Below, piece by piece: positions 27,827 through 31,841 of a stretch of 43,857 nucleotides of DNA. Location: the NCBI GenBank assembly GCA_018648225.1, contig JABGRQ010000108.1, positions 1 to 43,857 of the forward strand, given 5' to 3'. How positions within the stretch are numbered: position 1 is the first letter of the stretch; every line of letters starts with the position of its first letter. The position numbers and the translations under genes were made by a program. The notes under the pieces are model-generated. The model did not search any database. It was not told the DNA's origin and worked only from the letters and a program-made list of their open reading frames with translations. The stretch comes from Chloroflexota bacterium. GTDB lineage: Bacteria; Chloroflexota; Anaerolineae; Anaerolineales; UBA11858.

Positions 27827-28315
27827 CTAGAGTTCGGGATAAACCATCTCCAACGCCGGAGCGTAGGGAGCTTTGGCTTTCTTGGTCTTTACGTTCTTGG
27901 TCGCCCAGAAAATCTCGGCAAACTGATTGACAGCCTCAACAAAGGCCACGCCCGCCTCGCGGTCGGCAGTCTGGCGCACCTTGGAACCAAGCTGCATAAC
28001 TTTGTGAACCACGCCGGTCAGTTCGGGGTGTGCTTCAACGTGGTGATCTTTAATATAATCACCCCAGATAATGCGAACTTCGTGCTTGGCATTCTCGGCG
28101 TGCTCTTCTTTCACGGCAATATAGCGAGACATGCTGTTGTCGCGGGCAACGCCTTCGCTTTCCAGACCGGCCATCAAATCCATCATACGCACAACAGTCA
28201 GGGCGCTGATTTGGGCAACAATCGGGTCGTAGATGCCACAGGGAACGTCGCAGTGCGCTTTGGCTTCTTCAAAGCCGAGTTTCGTATCCAGGGTTTGAAA
28301 AATTTTGTGGAACAT
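27827..28315 (-). CDS. sodN: Nickel superoxide dismutase
   Basis: This 162-aa precursor has the nickel hook HCDVPCGIYDP at residues 21-31, preceded by a 20-aa leader that must be removed so His21 becomes the N-terminus. Mature ligands would be His1, Cys2 and Cys6. The rest is the four-helix bundle of the family, which removes superoxide in the cytoplasm. AGGAGG seven bases before the ATG and a consensus promoter suggest strong expression. sodX for maturation follows. Confidence 0.97.
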   Translation of the reverse strand: MFHKIFQTLDTKLGFEEAKAHCDVPCGIYDPIVAQISALTVVRMMDLMAGLESEGVARDNSMSRYIAVKEEHAENAKHEVRIIWGDYIKDHHVEAHPELTGVVHKVMQLGSKVRQTADREAGVAFVEAVNQFAEIFWATKNVKTKKAKAPYAPALEMVYPEL

Positions 28316-28582: not shown

Positions 28583-29299
28583 ATGACTTGGATTTACCTC
28601 TCCCCGCATCTCGATGATATTGCCCTCTCGCTCGGTGGGCTGCTGTGGCGGCAAAGTCTGGCTGGTGAACGCATCAGTGTGTGGACGATCTGCGCGGGTG
28701 ATGCGCCCTCAGGCCCACTCTCGCCCTTTGCCCGCGCTCTGCATCGGCGTTGGGGTGTGGGGCGCGAGGCCACAGCTGTGCGTCGGGCCGAAGATATTGA
28801 ATCATGTCGTGTGCTGGAAGTAGCATACCGTCATTTTTCGCTGCCCGATTGCATTTATCGCCGCTCGCTGCGCACCGGTGAACCGCTTTATGCTACCGAA
28901 GAAGCCATTTTTGGCGAAGTTCACCCAGATGAAGCCGTGCTGGTGGATCAGTTGGCTCAAACCATGAAGGCTACCCTGCCCGTCGATGCCAAAATCATCA
29001 TTCCCTGGGGGTTGGGTGGGCATGTGGATCATCGCCTGACGCGGGCCGCGGCTGAGCGATTGGGCTGCCCCCTGGGGTATTACGCCGACTACCCCTACGT
29101 GCTGGATGTCCCTGCCTGGGATGTAGGTGATCTGACTCCCCGGCAATATCCTATCTCGAAGGCTGCACTGGCAAAATGGCAATCTGCAGTGGCGGCACAT
29201 CAATCTCAAATTAGCACCTTTTGGGCCAGTCGTGATGAAATGTACGCCGCGATCCAATTTTACGTTGAAAGGCAAGCAGGCGTGACCCTTTGGTGCTAG
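28583..29299 (+). CDS. PIG-L/LmbE-family deacetylase
   Basis: This 238-aa protein has the zinc-binding N-terminal motif SPHLDDIALSLGG (H9, D11, D12; a variant of the usual HPDD) and the later GGHVDH (H147, H150). The family removes acetyl groups from GlcNAc-type sugars in GPI, mycothiol, bacillithiol or lipid synthesis. The substrate is not clear here, and no glycosyltransferase is adjacent. No Shine-Dalgarno; probably leaderless. Confidence 0.9.
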   Translation: MTWIYLSPHLDDIALSLGGLLWRQSLAGERISVWTICAGDAPSGPLSPFARALHRRWGVGREATAVRRAEDIESCRVLEVAYRHFSLPDCIYRRSLRTGEPLYATEEAIFGEVHPDEAVLVDQLAQTMKATLPVDAKIIIPWGLGGHVDHRLTRAAAERLGCPLGYYADYPYVLDVPAWDVGDLTPRQYPISKAALAKWQSAVAAHQSQISTFWASRDEMYAAIQFYVERQAGVTLWC

Positions 29300-29350: not shown

Positions 29351-29601
29351 TCTGCCCGCGGCGCAGAAAGTTATGCGTCATTTTTTTGTTCATGGCGCTT
29401 CTTGCTGATAATAATCTTCACTCATCCGAACGATTACGCTCAGTAAGAGGTTTTTTGTTACAGGATGGGGCGCAGACCATTATAGTTGTGCAGGCCCTAA
29501 GAATTTTTGCAACAACCAGAAGTTGTAACCACTCAAATGACTCCTTTTGGGATTGACCTATATTGAGCAGTTACATGAGCATAAAGGTGCAAGGACGAAT
29601 G

Positions 29602-30069
29602 ATGCCACCAACCTATTTGACCCAAGAAGGTTATGAAAAACTGCAAGAAGAGCTTGAATACTTGCGCACAACTCGGCGAAAAGAAGTTGCCGAGCGTTTG
29701 CGCGAGGCACTTGAAGATGGCGATGCAGGCGTCGATGCGGATGCCGAATGCGATGCCGCACGCAATGAGCAATCTTTTGTTGAAGGGCGCATTCGCGAAC
29801 TTGAGTTGATTCTTGCAAACGCCAAGTTAATCTCAGACGAAGACAAAAACGGGTTTGTGCAAATTGGCACCAAAGTGACAATTAAGGAAGACGGTATGGA
29901 GCCTGAAGCCTATACTATCGTTGGGGCTGTTGAAGCCGACCCGCGCAACGGATTGATTTCGAATGAATCTCCCTTGGGGAAAGCATTGCTAACACATAAA
30001 AAAGGCGATCTGGTGACTGTAAACGCACCCAATGGTTCATTTACGGTATCGGTATTGAAGGTCGAATAA
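29602..30069 (+). CDS. greA: Transcription elongation factor GreA
   Basis: This 155-aa GreA has the N-terminal coiled coil (YLTQEGYEKLQEELEYL to EGRIRELELI) and the C-terminal FKBP-like domain (GLISNESPLGKALL). GreA enters the RNA polymerase channel and stimulates cleavage of backtracked RNA with acidic tip residues. The tip here reads GDAGVDADAEC in place of the usual GDL-x-ENAEY: D41 is kept, the loop is two residues longer, and the Glu is replaced by Asp. Four possible starts exist (29563, 29575, 29599, 29602); AAGGA six bases before ATG 29602 decides. Confidence 0.94.
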   Translation: MPPTYLTQEGYEKLQEELEYLRTTRRKEVAERLREALEDGDAGVDADAECDAARNEQSFVEGRIRELELILANAKLISDEDKNGFVQIGTKVTIKEDGMEPEAYTIVGAVEADPRNGLISNESPLGKALLTHKKGDLVTVNAPNGSFTVSVLKVE

Positions 30070-30091: not shown

Positions 30092-30126
30092 GCCCCGCGC
30101 CAATTTGTTGGTGCGGGGCTTTTTTA
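30092..30126 (+). terminator. greA terminator
   Basis: GCCCCGCGCCAA, TTTG, TTGGTGCGGGGC, then TTTTTT. Confidence 0.92.
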
Positions 30127-30323: not shown

Positions 30324-31841
30324 ATGGCGGCTGAGTTATCCAATTTAGAGCAAATTCGTATTGAAAAAATTCATGCGCTGCGTGCCGAAGGTGTAGAGCC
30401 TTTCCCTTCACGGGCAGAGCGCACGCATACTGCGCAGGCTGCCATCGAGGCTTTCGAGACGGTTGAAGGGGATGAGAACGCAGACTCGGTGATCGTCACA
30501 TTAACCGGACGATTGCGTTCAATGCGCCCGATGGGTAAGATTACTTTTGCACATATCGAAGACGGTACAGGACGCGTGCAACTTTTCTTGCGCCTGAATG
30601 ATGTTGGCGAAGAAGCGCTGCAATTTTTCAGCCGCAACTTTGATCTGGGCGATTTTGTACAGGCCACTGGATTAATGTTTCGTACGCGCACCGGCGAAGC
30701 CACAGTACGGGTTGAGGCTTTCCGCATGTTGGCAAAGGCAGTCACGCCGCTGCCAGCCGCAAAAGATGAAGTTGTGGATGGCGAAGTTGTGCAACATGCC
30801 ACGCTCAACGATCCCGAAACGCGTTTTCGCCAACGTTATGCCGATTTAGCCATCAACGCTGAGGTGCGCGCCGTTTTCCGTAAACGTTCAGCGATTCTGC
30901 GTGCCTTGCGCGATTTTATGGATAACGAGGGTTTTCTCGAAGTGGAAACGCCCATCTTGCAGCCCATCTATGGCGGGGCGGCGGCGCAGCCTTTTGTGAC
31001 TCATCATAACCAACTCAAGCAAGATTTATATTTGCGAATTTCATTCGAGTTATATCTGAAACGTTTGTTGGTTGGCGGCTTCGAAAAGGTCTATGAAATT
31101 GGGCGCGATTTTCGTAATGAGGGCGTGTCTTTCAAACACAATCCAGAATTTACCCAACTAGAATTTTATTGGGCCTATGCCGATTACGAACAGGTAATGG
31201 CGCTCACCGAGCAAATGCTGGCATTTGTGGCCAATCGAGTCTTTGGTAAGGGTACATTTGTATTCAAGGGGCAAGCGATCAATCTTGATCCGCCCTGGCA
31301 GCGCGTGGAATTGCGCCAGGGCCTTCTCGACAAAATCGGCATTGATATTCAGAATCACCTCACGAGCGAGAGTCTCGCCGCAGCGATGAAAGCCCAGGGC
31401 ATCGATTCCCCACCCGGAGCCACGCGCGGCAAACTCATCGATCTACTGGGCAGCACCTATCTGGAGCCAACCTTTATCCAGCCGACGTTCCTCTATAATT
31501 ATCCGCGCGACATTTCTCCGCTGGCAAAATCCATCCCCGGCGATCCGCTGACGGTGGAGCGGTTTGAGGGTTTTATCGGCGGTATGGAGTTGTGCAACGC
31601 TTTCACCGAATTGAATGATCCGCTCGATCAAGAGGCGCGTTTTGTTGAAATGGGGCGGGATTATGATGCCGATGACGAAGAACACCATCCCATTGATGAG
31701 GATTATCTGCGTGCCATGCGCTACGGGATGCCCCCGAACGGCGGTTTTGGTTTAGGTGTGGATCGCCTGGTGATGCTTCTGACGGATCAGCATAGCATAC
31801 GCGAGGTGCTGCTATTCCCCCATTTGCGCAGCAAAGAATAG
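30324..31841 (+). CDS. lysS: Lysyl-tRNA synthetase, class II
   Basis: This 505-aa protein has an N-terminal OB-fold tRNA-binding domain (about 60-160) and a class II catalytic core. Motif 1 is near FLEVETPILQP, motif 2 is KVYEIGRDFRNEG with the following HNPEFTQLEFYWAY, and motif 3 is GFGLGVDRLVMLL. The length and the SIREVLLFPHLR end match LysRS. AAGGAG eight bases before ATG 30324 decides the start. A GC-rich palindrome and a strong terminator follow the stop. Confidence 0.97.
   Translation: MAAELSNLEQIRIEKIHALRAEGVEPFPSRAERTHTAQAAIEAFETVEGDENADSVIVTLTGRLRSMRPMGKITFAHIEDGTGRVQLFLRLNDVGEEALQFFSRNFDLGDFVQATGLMFRTRTGEATVRVEAFRMLAKAVTPLPAAKDEVVDGEVVQHATLNDPETRFRQRYADLAINAEVRAVFRKRSAILRALRDFMDNEGFLEVETPILQPIYGGAAAQPFVTHHNQLKQDLYLRISFELYLKRLLVGGFEKVYEIGRDFRNEGVSFKHNPEFTQLEFYWAYADYEQVMALTEQMLAFVANRVFGKGTFVFKGQAINLDPPWQRVELRQGLLDKIGIDIQNHLTSESLAAAMKAQGIDSPPGATRGKLIDLLGSTYLEPTFIQPTFLYNYPRDISPLAKSIPGDPLTVERFEGFIGGMELCNAFTELNDPLDQEARFVEMGRDYDADDEEHHPIDEDYLRAMRYGMPPNGGFGLGVDRLVMLLTDQHSIREVLLFPHLRSKE

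Follow-up and report, generated by a model that had tools for sequence, protein, structure and literature searches.

GreA, a common factor that rescues stalled transcription, is often treated as a single conserved function marked by two acidic residues. In E. coli, GreA and GreB divide the work, and in Thermus the homologue Gfh1 coexists with a true GreA; TFS4 of Sulfolobus solfataricus is a TFIIS-like archaeal factor whose fold is unrelated to that of Gre. According to the papers cited here, D41 and E44 of GreA contact the catalytic Mg2+ (PMC7527559), and substitutions at D41 or E44 of the E. coli protein generally reduce or abolish cleavage while mostly preserving RNAP binding, the mutants inhibiting elongation at high concentration (PMC3078854). 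For MtbGre, the D43N variant is described as inactive and E46R as active, the second acid being dispensable, and S127E as having lost RNAP binding (PMC3132773). Rv3788, as described there, keeps both acids, has neither the Asn nor the Tyr of the tip and fails to stimulate cleavage; a further report describes it as competing with GreA and preventing nucleotide addition, an activity that depends on its acids (PMC4598747). The same source describes Gfh1 as an inhibitor of all catalytic activities of RNAP, and both Gfh1 and Rv3788 as able to displace Gre factors in vitro (PMC4598747). TFS4 is likewise described as a cleavage-factor paralogue turned RNAP inhibitor (PMC5715097).

The gene analysed here lies at 29602..30069 on the + strand of the window, that is, the whole stretch of 43,857 nucleotides under study, which comes from an uncultured Chloroflexota bacterium. 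This open reading frame codes for a GreA protein of 155 aa plus a stop, with its start at the ATG at 29599 or 29602; relatives start near the same Met. The protein belongs to GreA by its scores against the curated profiles NF001263 (164.4 bits, cut-off 145) and TIGR01462 (153.6 bits, cut-off 139) and by the presence of both Gre Pfam domains. Its conserved downstream neighbour is lysS, encoding lysyl-tRNA synthetase, at 30324..31841 (+; start placed at an internal Met of the listed frame). This adjacency on the same strand, together with a position on the GreA2 side of the trees described below, places the gene in a group for which we coined the name "lysS-linked GreA2 of Anaerolineales", shortened to "GreA2". 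The order name is taken from the nearest named relatives among the matches listed (L101-L103), which are titled as Anaerolineales and whose proteins are 77-83% identical. Of the 104 loci that offer 600 bases or more of room, 100 have lysS downstream in the same orientation, a count in which some loci represent the same place fetched twice. The four misses are L075, where a different frame comes next, L172 and L177, which are GreA1 by their tips, and L179; at L176 the gap between greA2 and lysS measures 1107 bases. A literature search with thin coverage of subscription papers found nothing on a GreA carrying D41E and, with noisy search terms, nothing on such a GreA paralogue in Chloroflexi or Anaerolineae.

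The tip of the window protein reads E38-D39-G40-D41-A42-G43-V44-D45-A46-D47-A48-E49-C50, and the codons of G40 to C50 (GDAGVDADAEC) occupy 29719..29751 on the + strand, as placed by the sequence and an alignment of 19 copies. An earlier, sequence-only reading of this DNA had described an altered tip, two residues longer than usual, that keeps Asp41, and both points agree with our comparisons. The HMMER alignment shows a two-residue gap at the tip in E. coli GreA (1grj) and in the three Thermus Gfh1 entries displayed; GreB (2p4v) is likewise two residues shorter in the tip stretch, with the gap set about 10 residues further on. Asp41, on which membership in GreA was also assessed, is literally residue 41 of the window protein. 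The same reading took the second acid to be an Asp, which holds for one placement of the gap only: HMMER sets Glu44 opposite Ala46 and Asn45 opposite Asp47, while a shifted gap brings Glu44 opposite Asp45. Compared with canonical GreA (1grj, TIGR01462, NF001263), the protein is alike in its profile scores, Asp41, its C-terminal Ser-Pro and its modelled fold. It is unlike canonical GreA in its tip, which exceeds the standard length of the consensus G-D-L-x-E-N-A-E-Y by two residues and is changed at the Glu44, Asn45 and Tyr48 positions, in its coexistence with a canonical GreA1, and in the loss of Asp41 from sister copies. Its status as a paralogue, the Asp41 loss in sister copies, and the changes at the Asn45 and Tyr48 positions had been missed by the earlier reading.

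That reading had further suggested that slippage within GATGC-like repeats produced the insertion. The repeats are indeed present, with 4 in the 45 bases examined, and they would favour recent slippage or an assembly error confined to one genome, as would the division of the source assembly into 226 contigs. However, synonymous draws for the same peptide gave a mean of 3.27 such repeats and contained at least 4 in 45% of 20,000 draws (P 0.45); because Asp-Ala codons spell such units, the count is what the peptide demands. Moreover, the longer tip occurs in 20 of the 20 GreA2 copies found in the window's family and in all four copies from f7, another family of the same order (GGD[LR]G[VI]D[PM]DAEY), with differing codons; the f7 tips have the length of the window tip and no repeated Asp-Ala run. 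We reject a recent origin by slippage or misassembly, whose probability we regard as negligible.

Within the window's family, the tip reads GD[ASD]GVDADAEC in six copies from the window's genus and two from g4, GDAGIDND[AV]EV in the single copies of g3 and g5 (the latter partial), and [SG]PLGVDAD[VGA]EV in the ten copies of genus g2. Residues G43, D45, D47, E49, A52, A53 and N55 are invariant among the 19 full-length copies, a tally that sets aside the partial copy L024. Of these 19 copies, 9 have Asp and 10 have Pro at residue 41 (Asp41 is kept in 10 of 20 when L024 is counted), and at residue 50, which takes the Tyr48 position, 8 have Cys and 11 have Val; the Asn45 position is altered in the family copies as well. 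The copies that are missing Asp41 carry an Asp at residue 38, where the remaining copies have Glu. In f7, both Asp41 and Tyr48 are kept in 4 of 4 copies. The GreA2 tip of this family has thus gained two residues and carries an invariant G-[VI]-D-x-D-x-E loop; its Asn45 and Tyr48 positions differ from the consensus, and Asp41 is gone from half of the copies.

Tip codons differ among the family copies though the residues stay. For GreA2, dS was computable for 11 of the 15 pairs, and these gave dN/dS of 0.037-0.101; dS stays below 1 in just two of them (dN/dS 0.043 and 0.101). For GreA1, values of 0.039-0.192 were obtained in 6 of 15 pairs. Judged from these alignments, the lengthened tip of the window's family is old, conserved and under purifying selection. 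The sequence-only reading had named, as evidence that would count against it, a gapless alignment with relatives that carry the same tip and retain full activity; the first half of this, relatives with the same tip, is found at the level of sequence. Motif searches with a strict tip pattern in 396 genomes of the class and a relaxed one in 400 genomes of the phylum each returned only the source genome, in samples that, by our own reading of their rows, held no other genomes of the window's family, f7 or f14.

The source genome (4.02 Mb, 97.35% complete) contains two Gre genes. The second greA, whose existence the earlier reading had proposed to check, is a canonical greA1 with the tip MGDLSENAEY at C83:9840-10049. 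Of the 21 genomes of the window's family, 19 yielded GreA1 and 20 yielded GreA2, and those missing a copy are 80-89% complete; G004 and G012 (89% and 80% complete, respectively) have GreA2 and no detected GreA1. Of 201 genomes sampled from the order, 200 gave a Gre match, most of which gave two. The GreA1 tip has normal length in 19 of 19 family copies. A tip that compensates for an altered polymerase is an unlikely explanation, because GreA1 of the same genomes keeps its normal tip, in a comparison that covered the Gre proteins.

The presence of GreA1 in 19 of 21 family genomes, together with the variation of residue 41 and of tip length within the order, would also suit a tip that drifts under relaxed constraint, with GreA1 covering the function and GreA2 kept for a role independent of its tip. 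This account is at odds with the four loop positions that are invariant in the family despite varied codons, and with the low dN/dS; a G-x-D-x-D-x-E pattern would hardly be kept under drift. We consider it improbable.

GreA2 occurs throughout the sampled part of the order, and the separation of the two paralogues holds there as well. GreA1 was labelled by a tip containing SENA, so that Glu44 and Asn45 are present in it by definition. In a tree built without the tip columns, 28 distinct GreA1 rows split from 187 others with 99 SH-aLRT, and in a 110-row tree 8 GreA1 rows split from 102 others with branch support of 100/96; since the GreA1 rows form one side of a supported branch, the SENA label corresponds to a clade. 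The partial L005 was left out of both trees, and the 110-row tree also excluded L024, L180, L174, L239, L246, L247 and L252, with duplicates of tip types thinned. Asp41 and Tyr48 are present in 28 of 28 distinct GreA1 rows, which outside the family are the best-scoring matches of the order sample. Among the 126 distinct unextended GreA2 rows, one of which is L180, a long branch titled Actinomycetota, 119 have Glu at residue 41 and 7 have Asp; Glu occupies residue 44 in 117, Asn residue 45 in 105 and Tyr residue 48 in 111. The GreA2 tip has thus moved off the cleavage consensus, with Glu41 in most unextended copies of the order; among these is L123 of the cultured Bellilinea caldifistulae GOMI-1, whose GreA2 has a Glu41 tip.

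Lengthened tips take several forms among the GreA2 rows. Because the GreA2 rows were best matches ranked by likeness to the extended type, with 80 further listed places fetched, order-wide proportions are biased in favour of extended types, and it is with this bias that the tip stretch is at least two residues longer in 45 of the 187 distinct rows and one longer in 16. The f8 copies (L217, L221, L224, L228-L236 and L243; 13 genomes read) and L152 have two added residues in the tip E-A-A-E-[NSA]-S-L-G-E-F-V-E-D-[PA]-E-F, and the SLGEFVED[PA]EF tip type forms one clade (100/99). Another clade (100/100) is formed by the tip type GGGDDLLENAEY, also two residues longer, in L169, L170, L171 and L175, the last from the isolate Flexilinea flocculi TC1. 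In f14, L100 and L190 have the tips GGDMGVDLDAEY and AGDMGVDPDAEY, which are three residues longer and resemble the window loop; these two group in the tree with rows whose tips read GGELIEDAEY, and their likeness to the window loop would reflect convergence or gene exchange.

The groups submitted to AU tests were named after their tips with the first tree, whose bootstrap was unsettled, already seen. A single origin of all lengthened tips is disfavoured, with p 0.032 when the GVD, SLGEF and GGGDD types are held together, and the lengthened tips of further lineages probably arose independently. Holding all 25 GVD-type rows as one clade gave p 0.051, and holding the 23 that remain without L100 and L190 gave p 0.216, so that a single GVD-type clade is neither rejected nor shown by these alignments. 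Separately, L252 (G058:C49:2999-3463) is a divergent Gre protein with a lengthened, Asp-rich tip, GDYSDIDMDAEIINARHDQ; the same genome has a GreA2 of ordinary length, L187.

The AlphaFold2 model of the window GreA2 (39 sequences) has the GreA fold with a mean pLDDT of 90.7, helices at 8-42 and 44-72 and a turn at G43, and the model of L135, a copy missing Asp41 (28 sequences, mean pLDDT 86.7), has an open loop at 39-45; in both models confidence is lowest at the tip, with pLDDT of about 75 in the window's tip block and about 68 in that of L135. The model of the window protein shows the GreA-like conformation only, whereas Gfh1 is marked by pH-dependent inhibition in which its C-terminal domain turns. 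Its best Foldseek match is 9a7t_B, the GreA of an integrative RPOB-GreA model (TM 0.91), followed here by RNAP-bound Gfh1 (3aoi_X, 0.86), E. coli GreA (1grj, 0.85) and free Gfh1 (2f23_A, 0.47); the last value fits the turned domain of Gfh1 described in PMC4598747. Thermus Gfh1 (2f23, 2eul, 2etn, 3aoi) is alike in its Asp-rich tip and in this RNAP-bound fold. We nevertheless rejected an assignment of GreA2 to Gfh1, given the two-residue gap at the tip and a match of 59.9 bits against 94.7 for E. coli GreA. An Rv3788-like identity was also discarded, since NF004548, which we take to be the family of Rv3788, gives GreA2 66.3 bits against a cut-off of 126. As far as it is described, Rv3788 of Mycobacterium tuberculosis is similar in being a second Gre homologue that accompanies a working Gre and has neither the Asn nor the Tyr of the tip; the available portion of PMC3132773 mentions no tip extension in it. 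TFS4, as described, is alike in logic, as a cleavage-factor paralogue that inhibits RNAP, and unlike in fold.

The RNAP-docking C-terminal domain contains the conserved stretch S123-P124-L125-G126, encoded at 29968..29979 (+), in which S123 and P124 are invariant in three alignments; aligned by eye, S123 appears to match S127 of MtbGre. The fold of GreA2 is predicted to be kept, and the docking Ser-Pro is kept as well. Because this Ser-Pro is retained, the Asn45 and Tyr48 positions are changed and Asp41 is lost in half of the family, we read GreA2 as a modulator and a poor cleavage factor, or none at all. Our preferred explanation, to which we assign about an even chance, is that greA2 is a GreA paralogue of Anaerolineales, old and linked to lysS, whose product acts as a secondary-channel modulator, with cleavage weakened or lost, beside GreA1. 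GreA2 would still enter the RNAP secondary channel, its acidic loop would sit differently at the catalytic Mg2+, and its stimulation of transcript cleavage would be weakened or lost; it would compete with GreA1 and slow or re-tune nucleotide addition and backtracking, like Gfh1 or Rv3788, and GreA1 would supply ordinary cleavage. It was reasonable of the sequence-only reading to suggest that a factor with this altered acidic tip may have a different effect on backtracked polymerase.

Several observations weigh against this explanation. The window protein itself has Asp41, whose equivalent is described as essential in MtbGre, where the second acid is dispensable (PMC3132773), and it may retain cleavage. 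In addition, f7 combines the same loop length with Asp41 and Tyr48, the genomes G004 and G012 show GreA2 without GreA1, and D38 might stand in for Asp41 in the copies that have lost it. The main competing account, which we hold to be a serious candidate though clearly the less probable of the two, is that GreA2 still cleaves, its loop merely re-positioning Asp41 and a second Asp, and shares the work with GreA1. It draws on Asp41, which the window protein and half of the family copies retain, on the invariance of D45, D47 and E49, on the reported activity of MtbGre E46R (PMC3132773), and on f7. It has to accommodate Pro41 in 10 of the 19 full-length family copies, the changed Asn45 and Tyr48 positions, and a Glu41 that is already present in most unextended GreA2 of the order.

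A bolder reading is offered tentatively, at clearly short of even likelihood: Anaerolineales could have evolved secondary-channel factors that form a clade of their own and carry the longer Asp-rich loop G-[VI]-D-x-D-x-E in place of the GreA catalytic tip. Encoded ahead of lysS, such a factor could be a natural anti-Gre or an RNAP brake that binds Mg2+, and the tip would have been lengthened several times in the same paralogue. If true, this would be a regulator resembling Gfh1 with a separate origin in another phylum, and living intermediates would persist: tips with Glu41, lengthened tips with Asp41 and Tyr48, lengthened tips without the Tyr, and lengthened tips without Asp41. In GreA2, tip length has changed more than once and the key acid has been lost in places, with an intact GreA alongside, which offers a natural series of tip variants with which to find out what in the tip distinguishes an RNA-cleaving factor from an inhibitor. 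It also warns that not every GreA match should be annotated as a cleavage factor. The cultured carriers of GreA2, Flexilinea flocculi TC1 and Bellilinea caldifistulae GOMI-1, make such tests feasible.

Between greA2 and lysS, a terminator-like hairpin of 12 pairs, 9 of them G-C (30092-30119), is followed by a T run, the whole site spanning 30092..30125 (+); terminator-like sites number 2 in the region against a shuffle mean of 1.2. Because of this hairpin before lysS, greA2 may be transcribed alone, separately from lysS. Upstream of greA2, a PIG-L family deacetylase (PF02585) is encoded at 28583-29299 (+), and many of the 110 loci examined have a homologue of it close to greA2. Further upstream, on the - strand at 27827-28315, the window encodes a nickel-containing superoxide dismutase (PF09055, 146 bits) that contains HCDVPCGIYD.
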